Shown in pieces: positions 48,298-52,999 of a stretch of 64,000 bases of DNA. How positions within the stretch are numbered: the stretch's first letter is position 1; every line of letters starts with the position of its first letter. Source of the stretch: Terriglobales bacterium (lineage in GTDB: Bacteria > Acidobacteriota > Terriglobia > Bryobacterales > Bryobacteraceae); contig JAIXQP010000005.1 of NCBI GenBank assembly GCA_027485675.1, positions 1 to 64,000 of the forward strand, written 5' to 3'. The position numbers and the translations under genes were made by a program. The notes beneath the pieces are model-generated. The model was not told the DNA's origin. It saw only the letters and a list, made by a program, of their open reading frames with translations, and searched no databases.

Positions 48298-49736
48298 AGG
48301 TCTATCTCGTCGGCGCCGGGCCGGGCGATCCCGGCCTGCTGACGATCAAAGGCCGCGAAGTCCTCGCCCGCGCCGACGTCATCCTGCATGACCACCTCGC
48401 CAGCGACGCCGTGCTCGACTTTGCCTCCCCCACCGCCGAGCGCATCTACGTCGGCAAGAAGAAAGCGGACCACGCCATGCCGCAGGAAGAGATCGCCCGC
48501 CTCATGGTCGGCCACGCCCGCGCCGGCCATCTCGTCGTCCGGCTCAAAGGCGGCGACCCGCTCATCTTCGGCCGGGGCGGGGAAGAGATGGAGGCGCTTG
48601 TCGAAGCCGGCATCCCCTACGAAATCGTCCCCGGCGTCACCGCCGCCCTCGGCATCGCCGCCTACTCCGGCGTCCCGCTCACCCATCGCGACCACACCAG
48701 CGCCGTCACCTTCGTCACCGGCCACAAGCCCGAACAGATCGACTGGTCCCGCCTCGGCCACGCCGAAACGCTCGTCATCTATATGGGGCTCACCGCCATC
48801 GGTGAAATCTCCGCCCGGCTCATCGCCGCCGGCCGCGACCCCGCCACCCCCGCCATGGCCGTCCGCTGGGGCACCCGCCCCAATCAGCAGACCATCGTCG
48901 CCACCCTAGCCGATCTGCCCGCGCAGATCGCCGCGGCGCAGATGCGCCCGCCCGCCTCCGTCGTCATCGGCGAAGTGGTCGCCCTCCGCGAAAAGTTGAA
49001 CTGGTTCGAAAAACTGCCCCTCTTCGGCCAGCGCATCGTCACCACGCGCGCCGGCATGGCCGACCCCCTCCGCGCCCTCGGCGCCGAAGTCTTCGAACTC
49101 CCCGCCATTGAAATCCGCCCACCCCAGGACCCCGCGCCGCTTGCCGCCGCCATTGCGCAATTGGCCACCTACGATTGGCTGATCTTCACGAGCGCCAACG
49201 GCGTCCGCGGCTTCCTCGCCGCGCTCGATGCGAGCCCCGTCGATCTCCGCCAACTCCGCGCCCGCCTCTGCGCCATCGGCCCGGCCACTGCGGCCGCGCT
49301 CACGGCGCTCCATCTCAAGGTCGATGTCATCCCCGAAGAGTACGTCGCCGAAAGCCTTGTGGCCGCCCTCGAAAAGTTCGACCTCGCCGGCAAACGCATC
49401 CTGCTGCCTCGCGCCGCCGTCGCCCGCGATGTCGCGCCCATTGCCCTCGGCGAACGCGGCGCCCACGTCGATGTTGTCGAAGCTTATTACACCGCCGTCC
49501 CCCCCACCGACCTCTCCGCCGTCGCTGCCGCCGACTGGGTCACCTTTACGAGTTCCAGCACCGTCAAAAACTTCCTGGCTTTAGGCGGCGGCCGCCTGCT
49601 CGACGCCGGCGCCCGCATCGCCTCCATCGGCCCAGTGACCAGCGCCACCGTTAGGCAACACGGCTACGATGTCTCGGTCGAAGCCCGCGAGTTCACCATT
49701 CCCGGCCTAATCGCAGCGCTGACGACGCCTAGCTGA
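48294..49736 (+). CDS. cobA/hemD: Fused uroporphyrinogen-III methyltransferase and uroporphyrinogen-III synthase
   Basis: A 480-residue two-domain enzyme. Residues 1-245 are the SAM methyltransferase (SUMT: 'VGAGPGDPGLLT', 'RLKGGDPLIFGRGGEE', 'PGVTAA'), which makes precorrin-2 for siroheme and B12. Residues 250-480 are uroporphyrinogen-III synthase (HemD: 'FGQRIVTTRA', 'TFTSSSTVKNF'). HemD makes the substrate that the first domain methylates, so the fusion channels flux to siroheme. The last 8 nt overlap the minus-strand gene of the YcaO locus. Confidence 0.93.
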   Translation: MKVYLVGAGPGDPGLLTIKGREVLARADVILHDHLASDAVLDFASPTAERIYVGKKKADHAMPQEEIARLMVGHARAGHLVVRLKGGDPLIFGRGGEEMEALVEAGIPYEIVPGVTAALGIAAYSGVPLTHRDHTSAVTFVTGHKPEQIDWSRLGHAETLVIYMGLTAIGEISARLIAAGRDPATPAMAVRWGTRPNQQTIVATLADLPAQIAAAQMRPPASVVIGEVVALREKLNWFEKLPLFGQRIVTTRAGMADPLRALGAEVFELPAIEIRPPQDPAPLAAAIAQLATYDWLIFTSANGVRGFLAALDASPVDLRQLRARLCAIGPATAAALTALHLKVDVIPEEYVAESLVAALEKFDLAGKRILLPRAAVARDVAPIALGERGAHVDVVEAYYTAVPPTDLSAVAAADWVTFTSSSTVKNFLALGGGRLLDAGARIASIGPVTSATVRQHGYDVSVEAREFTIPGLIAALTTPS

Positions 49737-50190
49737 TTTGTACAGTCACGTCGGTGGAATTGCTCAGGGCCGCCACCAGGTCCGCCAATCCAGTGTGCAT
49801 CACTAAGCTGGGGATTCCGGCGAGTGATCGGCTTGTAATCATTACTCCAGCGCCGCCCGCGATCCCTGCGGCTTGGCCGCTGGCGGCGTCCCGCGGGGAT
49901 TTGATTGAGACGAGCGTGTTTTCAAGCGGTATGCCGAGCGCGCCTTGGGGGCGGGCCGTTGCGTCGAGGTGGTCACTGTAGGCGTCGATCGGGTTCCCTG
50001 GGTACGTGTAGCCTCGGGCCGGACTCAGTAGAACAATATCGCCCCAAACGACATTGTGCTCTGCTCGGGCGACCCGATAAGCTCCCGACGCCAGCGTCAA
50101 GTTGGACGGGCTCTTTTGCAAGCTCCCCAAGAAGCTCCTGCTGCCAATCTGCCCCGTCAAGTGCGTGCCAACGATCCTGATCTCACTCAT
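49729..50190 (-). CDS. Paralogue A flanking YcaO-TfuA; candidate substrate or partner
   Basis: A 153-residue protein with no recognised domain. I start it at the ATG of MSEIRIVG, with AGGAG 7 nt upstream. It shares with the protein at 52508-52897 an N-terminal 'SEIR..G..L.G.IG.RSF', a middle 'WGDI.LL.P', then 'SPRD.ASGQ', 'IT.RS' and 'SLVM..GL.DL', and the ending 'VQ' plus Ile/Val and Ser/Thr. It has no cysteine, no signal peptide and no membrane helix. A glycine/alanine-rich stretch follows SPRDAASGQ. It is divergent from ycaO across 93 bp. Being a substrate is inference from position alone. Confidence 0.7.
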   Translation of the reverse strand: MSEIRIVGTHLTGQIGSRSFLGSLQKSPSNLTLASGAYRVARAEHNVVWGDIVLLSPARGYTYPGNPIDAYSDHLDATARPQGALGIPLENTLVSIKSPRDAASGQAAGIAGGAGVMITSRSLAGIPSLVMHTGLADLVAALSNSTDVTVQIS

Positions 50191-50283
50191 TACCGGTCTC
50201 CTGACACGCAACTCGTGATATTCCCGCCAAAGAGCTCATTCGCAAATCGATGAGGCGTTTCCGCCGGGAATTTCGAGGTAGGT

Positions 50284-51474
50284 GTGTCGCTCCCTCTCAG
50301 CCGCATGCAAAAACAGTTCACCACCGGCACCCACCGAGCGGTCGCTCCCGGCGAGACCCTGGCCCGCATCAAGCCATTCTTCGCCGAGATCGGCATCACT
50401 CGCCTTGCCAACGTCACTGGACTCGACTCGATCGGCATCCCGGTCGCCCAGGCGGTCCGGCCAAACTCGAAATCACTCTCCGTGTCCCAGGGCAAAGGGG
50501 CCACGCTCGATTGCGCATTGGTTTCCGCCGCCATGGAGTCCATCGAGGGCTACCACGCCGAGCAGATCTCCGGTCCTGTCCATATCGCGAGCTATCAGGA
50601 TCTGAGCCGACGGTCCTTTGCTCTGGCCGATCCCTACCGCCTGCCCGCGAATCAGGCAATTTCGTTCCGGCCGGACCGGCCCATCGCCTGGATTGAAGGC
50701 TACGACTGGACCCACCGGGGACCCGTCTGGGCGCCGTTCGATCTTGTTCATTTGGACTTCACCGTGGGCCGTCGCGTGCTGGACAGCGGCTTCGAGCCCA
50801 GTTCCTCCGGCCTCGCTTCCGGCAATCATCTCCTCGAAGCACTCAGCCACGCCCTTTGTGAGTCCATTGAACGCGACTCGATTGCCGCGTGCGATCCTAG
50901 CGACCCCACGTCGCGCCAACGAAGAAAGGTTGCCCTGTCCTCTGTGGACGAACCCGCCTGCCGTCAAGTCCTCGAACAGTTCCGGTCGGCCGGCATCCGG
51001 GTCACCGTTTGGGACAACACGTCCGCCCTCGGCGTGCCCTGCTTTTCTGCGGAGATCGATGAGCCCGACGCAGGCCCGTTCCGGCGCGTTCGGCGAGCTG
51101 GGGGCAGTGGCTGCCACCCCTCCCGCTCCATCGCTTTGCTTCGTGCCTTAACCGAAGCCGCTCAATCCCGGTTGACTTACATCGCCGGGTCCCGGGACGA
51201 TATGACGTTCGACCCGAGTGAAAGGCCCTCGATGTTCGAAGGTGCGGGCGGCGAACCTCCCGCCGCAGTAAGTTACTCCTCCATTCCGGATATGAACTTC
51301 CCGACGATCGACGAGGATGTCCAATGGCTGGTGAGCCAGTTGCAAGCCTGCGGTTTTGATCAGGTGATCGTGTTCGATCTCACGATCCCCGCATTTGGCA
51401 TCCCCGTGGTGCGGGTGTTGATCCCCGGCCTCCAGACCGAAAAGCGCTCTGTCACCCTGAGAGACAGCCGATGA
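50284..51474 (+). CDS. YcaO-domain ATP-dependent peptide backbone-modifying enzyme
   Basis: A 396-residue YcaO protein. ATP/Mg ligands match the family: Ser81-Glu85-Glu88 in 'SAAMESIEGYHAE', Glu185/Glu193/Glu196 in 'LLEALSHALCESIERD', and 'LRALTEAAQSRL...RDD' near 286-305. YcaO enzymes activate the backbone amide oxygen with ATP to make azolines, macroamidines or, with TfuA, thioamides. The proline-rich C-terminal tail of azoline-type YcaOs is absent ('VTLRDSR' ends it). No cyclodehydratase partner or dehydrogenase is nearby. GTG start with GAGGT upstream; overlaps tfuA by 4 nt. Confidence 0.9.
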   Translation: MSLPLSRMQKQFTTGTHRAVAPGETLARIKPFFAEIGITRLANVTGLDSIGIPVAQAVRPNSKSLSVSQGKGATLDCALVSAAMESIEGYHAEQISGPVHIASYQDLSRRSFALADPYRLPANQAISFRPDRPIAWIEGYDWTHRGPVWAPFDLVHLDFTVGRRVLDSGFEPSSSGLASGNHLLEALSHALCESIERDSIAACDPSDPTSRQRRKVALSSVDEPACRQVLEQFRSAGIRVTVWDNTSALGVPCFSAEIDEPDAGPFRRVRRAGGSGCHPSRSIALLRALTEAAQSRLTYIAGSRDDMTFDPSERPSMFEGAGGEPPAAVSYSSIPDMNFPTIDEDVQWLVSQLQACGFDQVIVFDLTIPAFGIPVVRVLIPGLQTEKRSVTLRDSR

Positions 51475-52511
51475 GATGGATCGTTTTCTCGGGGCCGTCG
51501 CTTCCTGCCGCCGAGATCGAAGCGCTGTTGCCGGGCGCGACAGCGCTGCCCCCGGCCGAAAGGGGCGATCTCTACCTGGCCGCCCAGGAGCGGCCCGACG
51601 CCATCGGATTGATCGACGGCTACTTCGAACAACGCCTCTCGGTATGGCATAAGGAGATTCTCTGGGCGATGGAAGCCGGCATCGCCGTCTACGGGGCGAG
51701 CAGCATGGGCGCACTGCGCGCCGCGGAGTTGGCGGCGTTTGGCATGCGTGGAGTCGGTGCCATCTTTGAGAAGTTCCACTCCGGGGAGTGGCTCGACGAT
51801 GATGAGGTGGCCGTCAGCCACGCCACCGCCGAGTTCGATTACCGGTCCGGGTCCGAGGCGCTAGCCAACATCCGGTTCACCTTGGAACAGGCCCGGCAGG
51901 CGGGCGTGATAATCGCCGCCGAGCAGGAAAGGTATATAGCACTAGCGAAAAGCTGGTTCTACCCCGTGCGGACCTACGCCGCGCTGTTAGAAGCGATGCC
52001 GCACCCGGCGCTGGCCGCCTGGCTCCCGGCCAATCGCCTCGATCAGAAGCGGGCCGACGCCCAGTTGATGCTCCGCGAGATGGCCTCGGCGGAGCCGCAC
52101 CGGCCCGAGTTCGTTCTCGAGCAAACCATGTTCTGGGACCACCTGCGCCAGGAGCTCCAGCGCGTGCCGATCTCGGAAGCCGATCGAAAGGTACTGGCCA
52201 CCGTCAACGATGCCCCGGAACTGCGGACCGCCGCTGTTGGCTGGTGGCTCGCGCGGCACGAACTCGCGGGTCCACCGTCGATTTTCGAGGCGAACCAAAA
52301 GTTCTGCGATCGGCACGGACTCACTTCGCCGGAAGCCGTGCAGCGCTGGCTAGCCGATAATCACTATCGCCCGGAGGATCTGAACGCGTTGTTGACGGCG
52401 GCCGCGCGGGCGGCCCGGGCCGAGCAGTCCGCCGGATGCGCCCTCGAGGAAGTTCTCCTGCAGTATCTCCGCTGGAGTGGCGAATACCAGCACCGATTGC
52501 GGAATGCCTAG
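51471..52511 (+). CDS. tfuA: TfuA-domain protein
   Basis: A 346-residue protein with the TfuA domain at its N-terminus: 'VWHKEILWAM' (58-67), 'YGASSMGALRAAEL' (74-87) and 'DDDEVAV' (109-115). TfuA partners YcaO in thioamide formation (thioviridamide-type peptides and the McrA glycine in methanogens), probably handling the sulfur donor. The C-terminal 200 residues are an extra helical region I do not recognise, longer than the minimal domain. Coupled to ycaO (ATGA), and its stop overlaps the convergent paralogue B by 4 nt (CTAG). Confidence 0.9.
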   Translation: MRWIVFSGPSLPAAEIEALLPGATALPPAERGDLYLAAQERPDAIGLIDGYFEQRLSVWHKEILWAMEAGIAVYGASSMGALRAAELAAFGMRGVGAIFEKFHSGEWLDDDEVAVSHATAEFDYRSGSEALANIRFTLEQARQAGVIIAAEQERYIALAKSWFYPVRTYAALLEAMPHPALAAWLPANRLDQKRADAQLMLREMASAEPHRPEFVLEQTMFWDHLRQELQRVPISEADRKVLATVNDAPELRTAAVGWWLARHELAGPPSIFEANQKFCDRHGLTSPEAVQRWLADNHYRPEDLNALLTAAARAARAEQSAGCALEEVLLQYLRWSGEYQHRLRNA

Positions 52512-52897
52512 GTCACCTGCACCACGACGTCGTCGGCGCCCCGGATCGCTTGAATCAGGTCGCCTAACCCGTCCAACATGACCAGGCTGGAGACGTCACT
52601 GATCGACCGGCCAGTGATCACAATTCCAGAGGGTTGCCCCGAAGCCGGGTCCCGTGGGGACATAATCGTGAAAAGCGGCGTATTGTCCCACCCCTCAATC
52701 AGCCGAACGGTTGCCGGGCCTTGGGATGGCGTGAGGAGCAAGATATCGCCCCACTTCAAGCTGTTTCCAGCGGCCGGCACGGGTTGAGAGCCTGGGACGA
52801 TGGCAAAGCCAGCCGGATTCCGGCGCAGCGTCGCCGAAAAGCTCCTCTCGCCAATCCGTCCACTCAAATAACCGCCACTAGTCCTGATTTCACTCAC
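52508..52897 (-). CDS. Paralogue B flanking YcaO-TfuA; candidate substrate or partner
   Basis: A 129-residue homologue of the protein at 49729-50190. The GTG start is chosen because AGGGAG lies 9 nt upstream and the product then lines up exactly with paralogue A at SEIR; an ATG at 52906 touches the ribosome site. Relative to A it lacks about 14 residues in the middle and 5 after SPRD.ASGQ, and the rest aligns by eye throughout. No cysteine, signal peptide or membrane helix. It converges on tfuA. Function unknown. Confidence 0.7.
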   Translation of the reverse strand: MSEIRTSGGYLSGRIGERSFSATLRRNPAGFAIVPGSQPVPAAGNSLKWGDILLLTPSQGPATVRLIEGWDNTPLFTIMSPRDPASGQPSGIVITGRSISDVSSLVMLDGLGDLIQAIRGADDVVVQVT

Positions 52898-52999
52898 TGT
52901 GGGCATCTCCCTAGCACCCATCTCGTTGGGGTTCGTTCGCCCGGCTCAAACTTTCTTGCAGCCCTTGTCGATTTTCGCCACACTCATTCGTTATAGGGC

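Follow-up and report, generated by a model that had tools for sequence, protein, structure and literature searches.

A candidate mobile YcaO-TfuA cassette with its own putative folded protein target in Acidobacteriota

YcaO enzymes activate backbone amides with ATP. Two described systems in which such an enzyme thioamidates a whole protein are close to the locus considered here. In Methanosarcina the thioamide of McrA needs YcaO together with TfuA (PMC5589413), and in vitro the E. coli YcaO modified full-length ribosomal protein uL16, not uL16 peptides, in a reaction that needed Na2S, MgCl2 and ATP (PMC13063428); the authors of that report know of methyl-coenzyme M reductase as the only other case to have been characterised. 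The sulfur comes from thiocarboxylated homologues of ThiS, which TfuA hydrolyses (PMC13063428, PMC8939145). The present locus is a ycaO-tfuA pair flanked by the genes of two small paralogous proteins, A and B, in the first 64,000 nucleotides of contig JAIXQP010000005.1 of a Terriglobales bacterium (GenBank assembly GCA_027485675.1, forward strand; hereafter the window). With a probability of roughly one half, we propose that the cassette moves horizontally as a self-sufficient unit for protein modification, in which the enzymes thioamidate the dedicated, folded A/B protein.

Like the archaeal McrA system (Gly465 of methyl-coenzyme M reductase), the cassette has an enzyme pair encoded by overlapping ycaO and tfuA genes, the McrA-type models are the best for both enzymes, and the target would likewise be a whole protein. 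It differs in being bacterial and apparently mobile, in having a putative target that is small and dedicated, in a TfuA that runs about 140 residues beyond the McrA-type model, and in that both enzymes score under the curated cut-offs. With E. coli YcaO and uL16 it would share the modification of a folded bacterial protein, there apparently recognised through its tertiary structure (PMC13063428), whereas the E. coli system has no TfuA, a conserved ribosomal target and a YcaO of another family. Clusters for thioamidated ribosomally synthesised and post-translationally modified peptides (RiPPs), such as the thioviridamide-like compounds and thiovarsolins, also have the YcaO-TfuA pair and can contain methyltransferases; the cassette, in contrast, encodes a predicted-globular protein of 116-192 residues convergent with tfuA, and no short precursor, protease or transporter was found in it. 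The titles and abstract openings of the papers searched on YcaO-TfuA thioamidation describe no such system. The enzyme pair is already known, while the literature searched appears to contain no description of the A/B family and its fold, of the cassette or of its link to a methyltransferase; one A/B locus could be listed as unclassified among the Acidobacteria clusters counted in the supplement of PMC8120280.

A four-gene cassette inserted at hemD

The four genes are one inserted cassette (Table 1). Within the genus, hemD was located in 17 of 19 genomes, and the region downstream of it was compared in seven. In G091 and G097 the BLAST alignment to the window ends at ~49,720 and restarts at ~52,956 while the subject is continuous, the skipped segment being exactly A-ycaO-tfuA-B. 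In G093, G095 and G101 hemD adjoins yciI, and 48-70 bp of the junction have diverged too far to align by BLAST; by eye, the junction reads through in G093 and G095. The yciI-sigma genes downstream are also missing in G092 and G094. Both junctions in the window carry a short direct repeat, GCAGCnCT, and the empty site has one copy of it in G097 (GCAGCTCT) and one with a difference in G091 (GCCGCCCT). Within the genus, G084 has this cassette at this very site and, because its right copy reads GCGGCCCC, we consider a target-site duplication only possible on this sequence comparison. There is no transposase or integrase among the cassette genes.

Table 1. Features of the cassette and its junctions (positions in the window)
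Feature	Position	Strand	Remarks
Protein A	49729-50190	-	153 aa, A/B family; tail-to-tail with hemD; Ser replaces Cys, without catalytic His
YcaO	50284-51474	+	396 aa; GTG start, alternative ATG at 50305
TfuA	51471-52511	+	346 aa; 4-nt overlap with ycaO
Protein B	52508-52897	-	129 aa; paralogous to A; overlaps tfuA by 4 nt, tail-to-tail
Inserted cassette	49721-52957		~3.24 kb, at 3' end of hemD; site empty in G091, G097, G093, G095
Left direct repeat copy, GCAGCGCT	49713-49720	+	Target-site duplication or microhomology
Right direct repeat copy, GCAGCCCT	52958-52965	+	G084 counterpart GCGGCCCC, inexact there

Synonymous divergence (dS) between the window genome and G084 is 0.249 for A, 0.242 for ycaO and 0.348 for tfuA, compared with 0.445-0.866 for nine flanking genes. 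G091, whose site is empty, is nearer to the window genome (dS 0.309 for hemD and 0.271 for the sigma gene) than G084 is (0.563 and 0.866). Transfer of the cassette as a whole, whether it moved or was exchanged, is well supported by this combination of lower divergence within the cassette and an empty site in the nearer relative.

Against its G084 orthologue, A is under purifying selection (nonsynonymous divergence, dN, 0.045; dS 0.249) and is therefore a real gene. The dN/dS of A, ycaO and tfuA is ~0.14-0.18, indicating purifying selection on each, and B evolves faster, at ~0.4 in both of two parts. The G084 copy of B (L024:8009-8395) has an in-frame TAG at codon 49, and in a second A/B cluster of G084 ycaO (L025:4897-6101) is split over two frames, or misassembled. 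A home-made gene caller was used, which missed some genes, including A and B of the window. The open reading frames (ORFs) are as given by an earlier sequence-only reading of the window, which had noted the 4-nt overlap of the enzyme genes and proteins of 153 and 129 residues on the opposite strand; its statement that A and B are homologous also stands (40% identity, E 4e-30). The two form a direct pair in one orientation, opposite to ycaO-tfuA, and B has an uncertain GTG start with an ATG three codons upstream.

The enzymes and their A/B partner family

In a Pfam scan the window YcaO carries the YcaO domain PF02624 (E 2.6e-75) and TfuA the TfuA domain PF07812 (E 2e-44, residues 49-168 only), both above the cut-off. 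The best NCBIfam model for YcaO is that of McrA-glycine thioamidation, TIGR03266, at 212.1 bits under a cut-off of 365; the model of SagD, an azoline-forming cyclodehydratase, follows at 117 bits, and NF040716, the E. coli YcaO family, gives 24 of 700 bits. TfuA scores 192.6 bits against NF033432, below the cut-off of 235.2. The McrA-thioamidation models also score best for the YcaO and TfuA of a second cassette, in Rubrivivax. The YcaO motifs ExxER (186-190) and ExxQxR (284-289), which we take to be the Glu/Arg/Gln nucleotide-binding motifs, are invariant in the four YcaOs compared. By analogy with these enzyme families, the chemistry of the cassette would be thioamide formation.

The A/B partnership with YcaO-TfuA is well supported by comparison of genomes. 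A profile of eight A/B sequences finds the family in 5 of 257 genomes of the order, among which 12 have TfuA; four of the five A/B genomes are also TfuA genomes (Fisher p 1.4e-5), in a set of uneven completeness (58-100% among those listed). A/B directly adjoins a long tfuA in six of seven loci (the window, two in G084, and one each in G081, G186 and Rubrivivax), and within the order it is adjacent in all five TfuA loci of the four genomes that have both. The co-occurrence check that the sequence-only reading had suggested thus comes out as it expected, with A/B tracking YcaO-TfuA. In all six loci the gene adjoining tfuA stands tail-to-tail with it, with an overlap of 4, 4, 4, 8 or 20 nt or a 35-nt gap; one of these six is a broken B copy.

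The family is rare and divergent. A seven-sequence profile searched against 396 genomes of the phylum matched convincingly in the window genome only, and the eight-sequence profile, against 250 genomes of Rubrivivax's family, in Rubrivivax sp. A210 only. Neither a plasmid search with the Rubrivivax protein nor a search of phage records and IMG/VR with window B returned an A/B protein. We rejected weak matches in G370, G567, G732, G783 and G812 as chance, since they align only in part and lie in dissimilar proteins or in short frames that overlap. A second convincing copy of A/B (one further stretch reaches E 0.7) or of TfuA is absent from the window genome. Members have 116-192 residues and are 13-35% identical to the Rubrivivax member, two acidobacterial proteins reaching 34-35%. 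No Pfam family matches any of seven members at E up to 10, NCBIfam has no match for the members scanned, and PADLOC has none for A, B, the Rubrivivax member, YcaO or TfuA; in PHROGs one of seven members has one match (phrog_35828, E 0.0015), to which no function is assigned.

A second A/B copy in front of ycaO occurs only in the window and its G084 counterpart, four of the six loci being single-copy. Members outside the lineage of these two genomes are 18-30% identical to B, against 47% for A, and because B is closer to A than to members of other lineages, the two-sided bracket is, on sequence identity, a local duplication within the window's lineage and not a general design. The idea of two dedicated targets, put forward in the sequence-only reading, does not hold as a general rule in this comparison.

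To place the enzymes more widely, one genome per species (84,980 species) was scanned with a long-TfuA query, and the best 80 of 303 relatives were considered. A/B lies in the flanks (up to 6 kb) of five of the 80, four known loci and Rubrivivax, and in those of none of the other 75. The C-terminal extension of TfuA had been singled out as unusual, but 63 of the best 80 relatives align over it (beyond query residue 290); we dropped it as the mark of a special system because it is common among long TfuAs. Of the called TfuAs, 67 of 76 have at least 344 residues, in a scan that itself used long TfuAs. A quick tree of 77 rows from 81 loci (L048, L051, L052 and L078 were dropped, their tfuA having been missed by the gene caller) places the A/B-linked TfuAs in one group of nine together with three unlinked ones (Shimodaira-Hasegawa-like approximate likelihood ratio test, SH-aLRT, 93) and needs three changes of A/B label. 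A tree holding the six A/B rows together exceeds the free quick tree in likelihood by 24.9 log units and is not rejected (approximately unbiased test, p-AU 0.855), and on this evidence the TfuAs of A/B loci can be one clade across two phyla.

In four of six loci (G081, G186, the second G084 cluster and Rubrivivax) the next gene encodes an S-adenosylmethionine (SAM) methyltransferase with TPR repeats. The Rubrivivax protein matches Methyltransf_28 in Pfam (E 1.9e-11), and PADLOC gives the methyltransferase-TPR protein a single weak match, mad2 (E 0.006). We rejected this gene as an essential part of the system: at E 1e-10 a relative is absent from the window genome, and close relatives (E < 1e-100) occur outside A/B loci in six genomes (G056, G221, G078, G098, G087 and, as a second copy, G186), where the surrounding stretches compared match none of the A/B, TfuA and YcaO profiles. 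Because such relatives occur without YcaO-TfuA nearby, the methyltransferase-TPR protein is best seen as a recruited partner and not a fixed one. At L141, L142 and L143 its relatives stand beside weak peptidoglycan-binding, VanY-like or fn3 matches, and these loci also adjoin very large proteins of unknown kind (1096 and 1280 aa).

Predicted fold of the A/B proteins

Modelled with AlphaFold2, the Rubrivivax protein and window B show a common topology: strands, a low-confidence stretch of ~20-40 residues, then strand-strand-helix-strand. In a Foldseek search of the PDB the first match of window B is the L,D-transpeptidase 5bmq (probability 0.69, E 0.21), and among the best 50 of its 69 matches a query-normalised TM-score (TMq) above 0.4 is reached only by L,D-transpeptidases (5bmq, chains of 5e51, 4xzz Csd6 and 4zfq) and by 4xxt. 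Among the best 50 of 84 matches of the Rubrivivax protein, the two highest TMq values belong to the L,D-transpeptidases 5e51 and 8da2, at ranks 6 and 8, after short matches to unrelated proteins. A profile comparison with eight sequences of DUF2778 (Tlde1_dom, PF10908) puts the whole domain in register from end to end, the PxGxY turns of the two profiles coinciding and the low-confidence stretch appearing as an insertion relative to the DUF2778 profile. The global score is 22.0, compared with maxima of 10.6 in 150 column shuffles and 7.7 among 25 other families; the local score is 23.1, and its shuffle and other-family maxima are 19.0 and 20.3. The likeness to DUF2778 had been spotted by eye before these tests, and the test family was thus not chosen blind.

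A/B therefore resembles DUF2778 and the YkuD L,D-transpeptidases in topology and, by profile, over its full length. It differs from them in having no Pfam match, no evident exported form, and a loop, inserted between the two conserved halves, that is hypervariable in length and sequence; and at the places aligned with the catalytic His...SxGC, His is present in 0 of 8 members, Cys in 2 of 8 (Rubrivivax and G081) and Ser in 6 of 8. In the G186 protein (L026:3818-4396) the loop holds two imperfect copies of a segment, at about residues 78 and 126, with 6-7 identities in 10-residue windows. Sequence and models together make a non-catalytic L,D-transpeptidase-like scaffold (YkuD PF03734/DUF2778) the most likely identity of A/B, and a relation to this fold with loss of the catalytic residues appears well supported; the single tests are weak, agree with one another, and are strengthened only by the controls.

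A proposed modification unit, its alternatives and its significance

The candidates for a substrate inside the cassette are few. In the Rubrivivax and G186 cassettes the gaps are at most 90 bp, and no ORF of at least 15 aa lies mostly outside the known genes, so that A/B is the only non-enzyme protein carried. By the same measure the window has four ORFs, of 20-47 aa, three of which span the right junction, and none looks like a precursor; upstream of ycaO there are four extra ORFs in G081 and six in the second G084 cluster, unlike each other by eye. No protease (leader peptidase) or transporter is found among the genes of any of the six cassettes. The sequence-only reading was right in reporting these two kinds of gene as lacking, and it overlooked the methyltransferase-TPR partner of other loci; its broader interpretation is borne out as to the link of the A/B family to the enzymes, and missed the A/B fold and the inserted cassette.

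We favour thioamidation of the folded A/B protein because the McrA model is the best for the enzyme, because A/B is the sole non-enzyme protein, and because uL16 and McrA are precedents. YcaO would use ATP to activate a backbone amide, and TfuA would deliver sulfide equivalents from the thiocarboxylate pool of the host, giving one or more thioamides. As substrate we propose the A/B protein, small and folded, whose gene meets tfuA tail-to-tail; its probably non-catalytic fold would present a hypervariable loop between conserved halves. Where it is carried, the SAM-methyltransferase-TPR protein may modify the same A/B target further; in the window version it is missing, and the target would be duplicated instead. 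The assignment of A/B as thioamidation substrate, reached by elimination and association only, is an even call, and by the same route the loop would be the place of modification and the methyltransferase would share A/B as its target. The fully specified picture, a mobile cassette that thioamidates its own folded pseudo-L,D-transpeptidase scaffold with a hypervariable loop, is more tentative and falls somewhat short of an even chance.

Several observations weigh against this proposal. The known loci number just seven; one genome holds two of them, and the majority come from metagenome-assembled genomes. At the seventh, in G059, the A/B gene ends 148 bp from the contig end, and no TfuA was found in that assembly (86% complete). 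Being encoded on the other strand, A/B is not co-transcribed with the enzymes, and with only four Gly and one Leu invariant among the eight members, conservation points to no particular modification site. As regards the fold, the mean predicted local distance difference test score (pLDDT) is low, at 69 for the Rubrivivax protein and 68 for window B; the Foldseek E-values are 0.2 or worse; the first Foldseek match of the Rubrivivax model is an unrelated protein, elongation factor G; the probability that HHalign itself gives to the DUF2778 alignment is 8-16%; and nothing was obtained when HHalign compared the A/B profile with individual DUF2778 or YkuD sequences.

A/B could instead be an accessory part that recognises or delivers a host protein or a small molecule for YcaO-TfuA, or that controls the enzymes, with the real substrate encoded elsewhere. 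YcaO enzymes with host-protein substrates do exist, as uL16 and McrA show (PMC13063428, PMC5589413), and a predicted-globular protein with a low-confidence loop would be adaptor-like; A/B is also convergent and on the opposite strand, while some other long-TfuA loci have short genes just upstream of ycaO. The wide divergence of A/B and the decay of B in G084 nevertheless suit a variable product, and an adaptor would account less readily for the duplication in the window, making this role unlikely, though it deserves to be taken seriously. The bacterial YcaO-TfuA products known to us are peptides, and A/B might be an oversized RiPP precursor whose halves serve as leader and follower and whose loop is a core freed by a host protease, the product being a thioamidated peptide that in some loci is methylated too. 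The strong variation of the loop among members suits such a core, as does the resemblance of the G186 loop repeats to the imperfect repeats of thiovarsolin precursors (PMC6511847), and section 13 of PMC8120280 treats only peptide products of bacterial YcaO-TfuA. We judge a precursor role improbable given that the cassette has no protease or transporter, that no signal sequence is evident by eye, and that the halves are predicted to fold as a single domain, unlike a leader peptide.

Descent of A/B from the DUF2778 (Tlde1-type) interbacterial cell-wall effectors would follow the DUF2778/YkuD relationship, with thioamidation arming or stabilising the protein in a module for competition or self-protection, and in the order methyltransferase-TPR relatives do adjoin weakly matching peptidoglycan-binding or fn3 proteins; but all 8 members compared lack the catalytic His and 6 of the 8 lack Cys, the cassette has no secretion or immunity gene, and A, B, YcaO and TfuA have no PADLOC match, which leaves this origin very improbable. 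It is harder still to credit that the four genes merely travel together in a selfish or decaying fragment. The in-frame stop in the G084 copy of B and the split ycaO of the second G084 cluster would fit such decay, against which stand the purifying selection on A, ycaO and tfuA and the fact that pairing and tail-to-tail arrangement recur in Rubrivivax, with an A/B protein that shares 34-35% identity with two acidobacterial ones.

Other arrangements of these enzymes were observed alongside the A/B loci. A separate long-TfuA system occurs at 36 loci (including L045, L047, L049, L056, L057 and L059), mostly in Rhodobacteraceae and other alphaproteobacteria, where ycaO-tfuA is followed by a gene for a ~430-aa protein that has an HExGH motif at all 36 loci (one such protein was scanned and had no Pfam match), then, in 32 loci, by one for a protein of ~100-300 aa, and then by adenylate-cyclase-TPR and GNAT genes. 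The ~100-300-aa proteins end in SGA-type pentapeptide repeats in 25 of 33, and these repeats look like a multi-core thioamidation substrate. In the window's order, L030, L031, L032, L034 and L035 have a kinase-like gene (serine/threonine, by eye), a gene for a ~90-100-aa protein, ycaO and a short tfuA; these probably represent conventional clusters for thioamidated RiPPs whose precursor is conserved. Two TfuA lineages that neighbour the A/B group have a short gene directly before ycaO, for a protein of 75 aa with a Cys-containing end (L072:4547-4774) and one of 77 aa (L084:4467-4700), likely precursor peptides such as the A/B loci lack.

If the proposal is true, A/B would be the third kind of protein known with a backbone thioamide and the first purpose-made target, and the cassettes that carry the methyltransferase-TPR gene would be the first to combine protein thioamidation with such a partner. 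The cassette would then offer a genetically portable means to study and use protein thioamidation, for which the A/B family supplies concrete candidates of small size, and bacterial YcaO-TfuA would not serve solely for the making of peptides.

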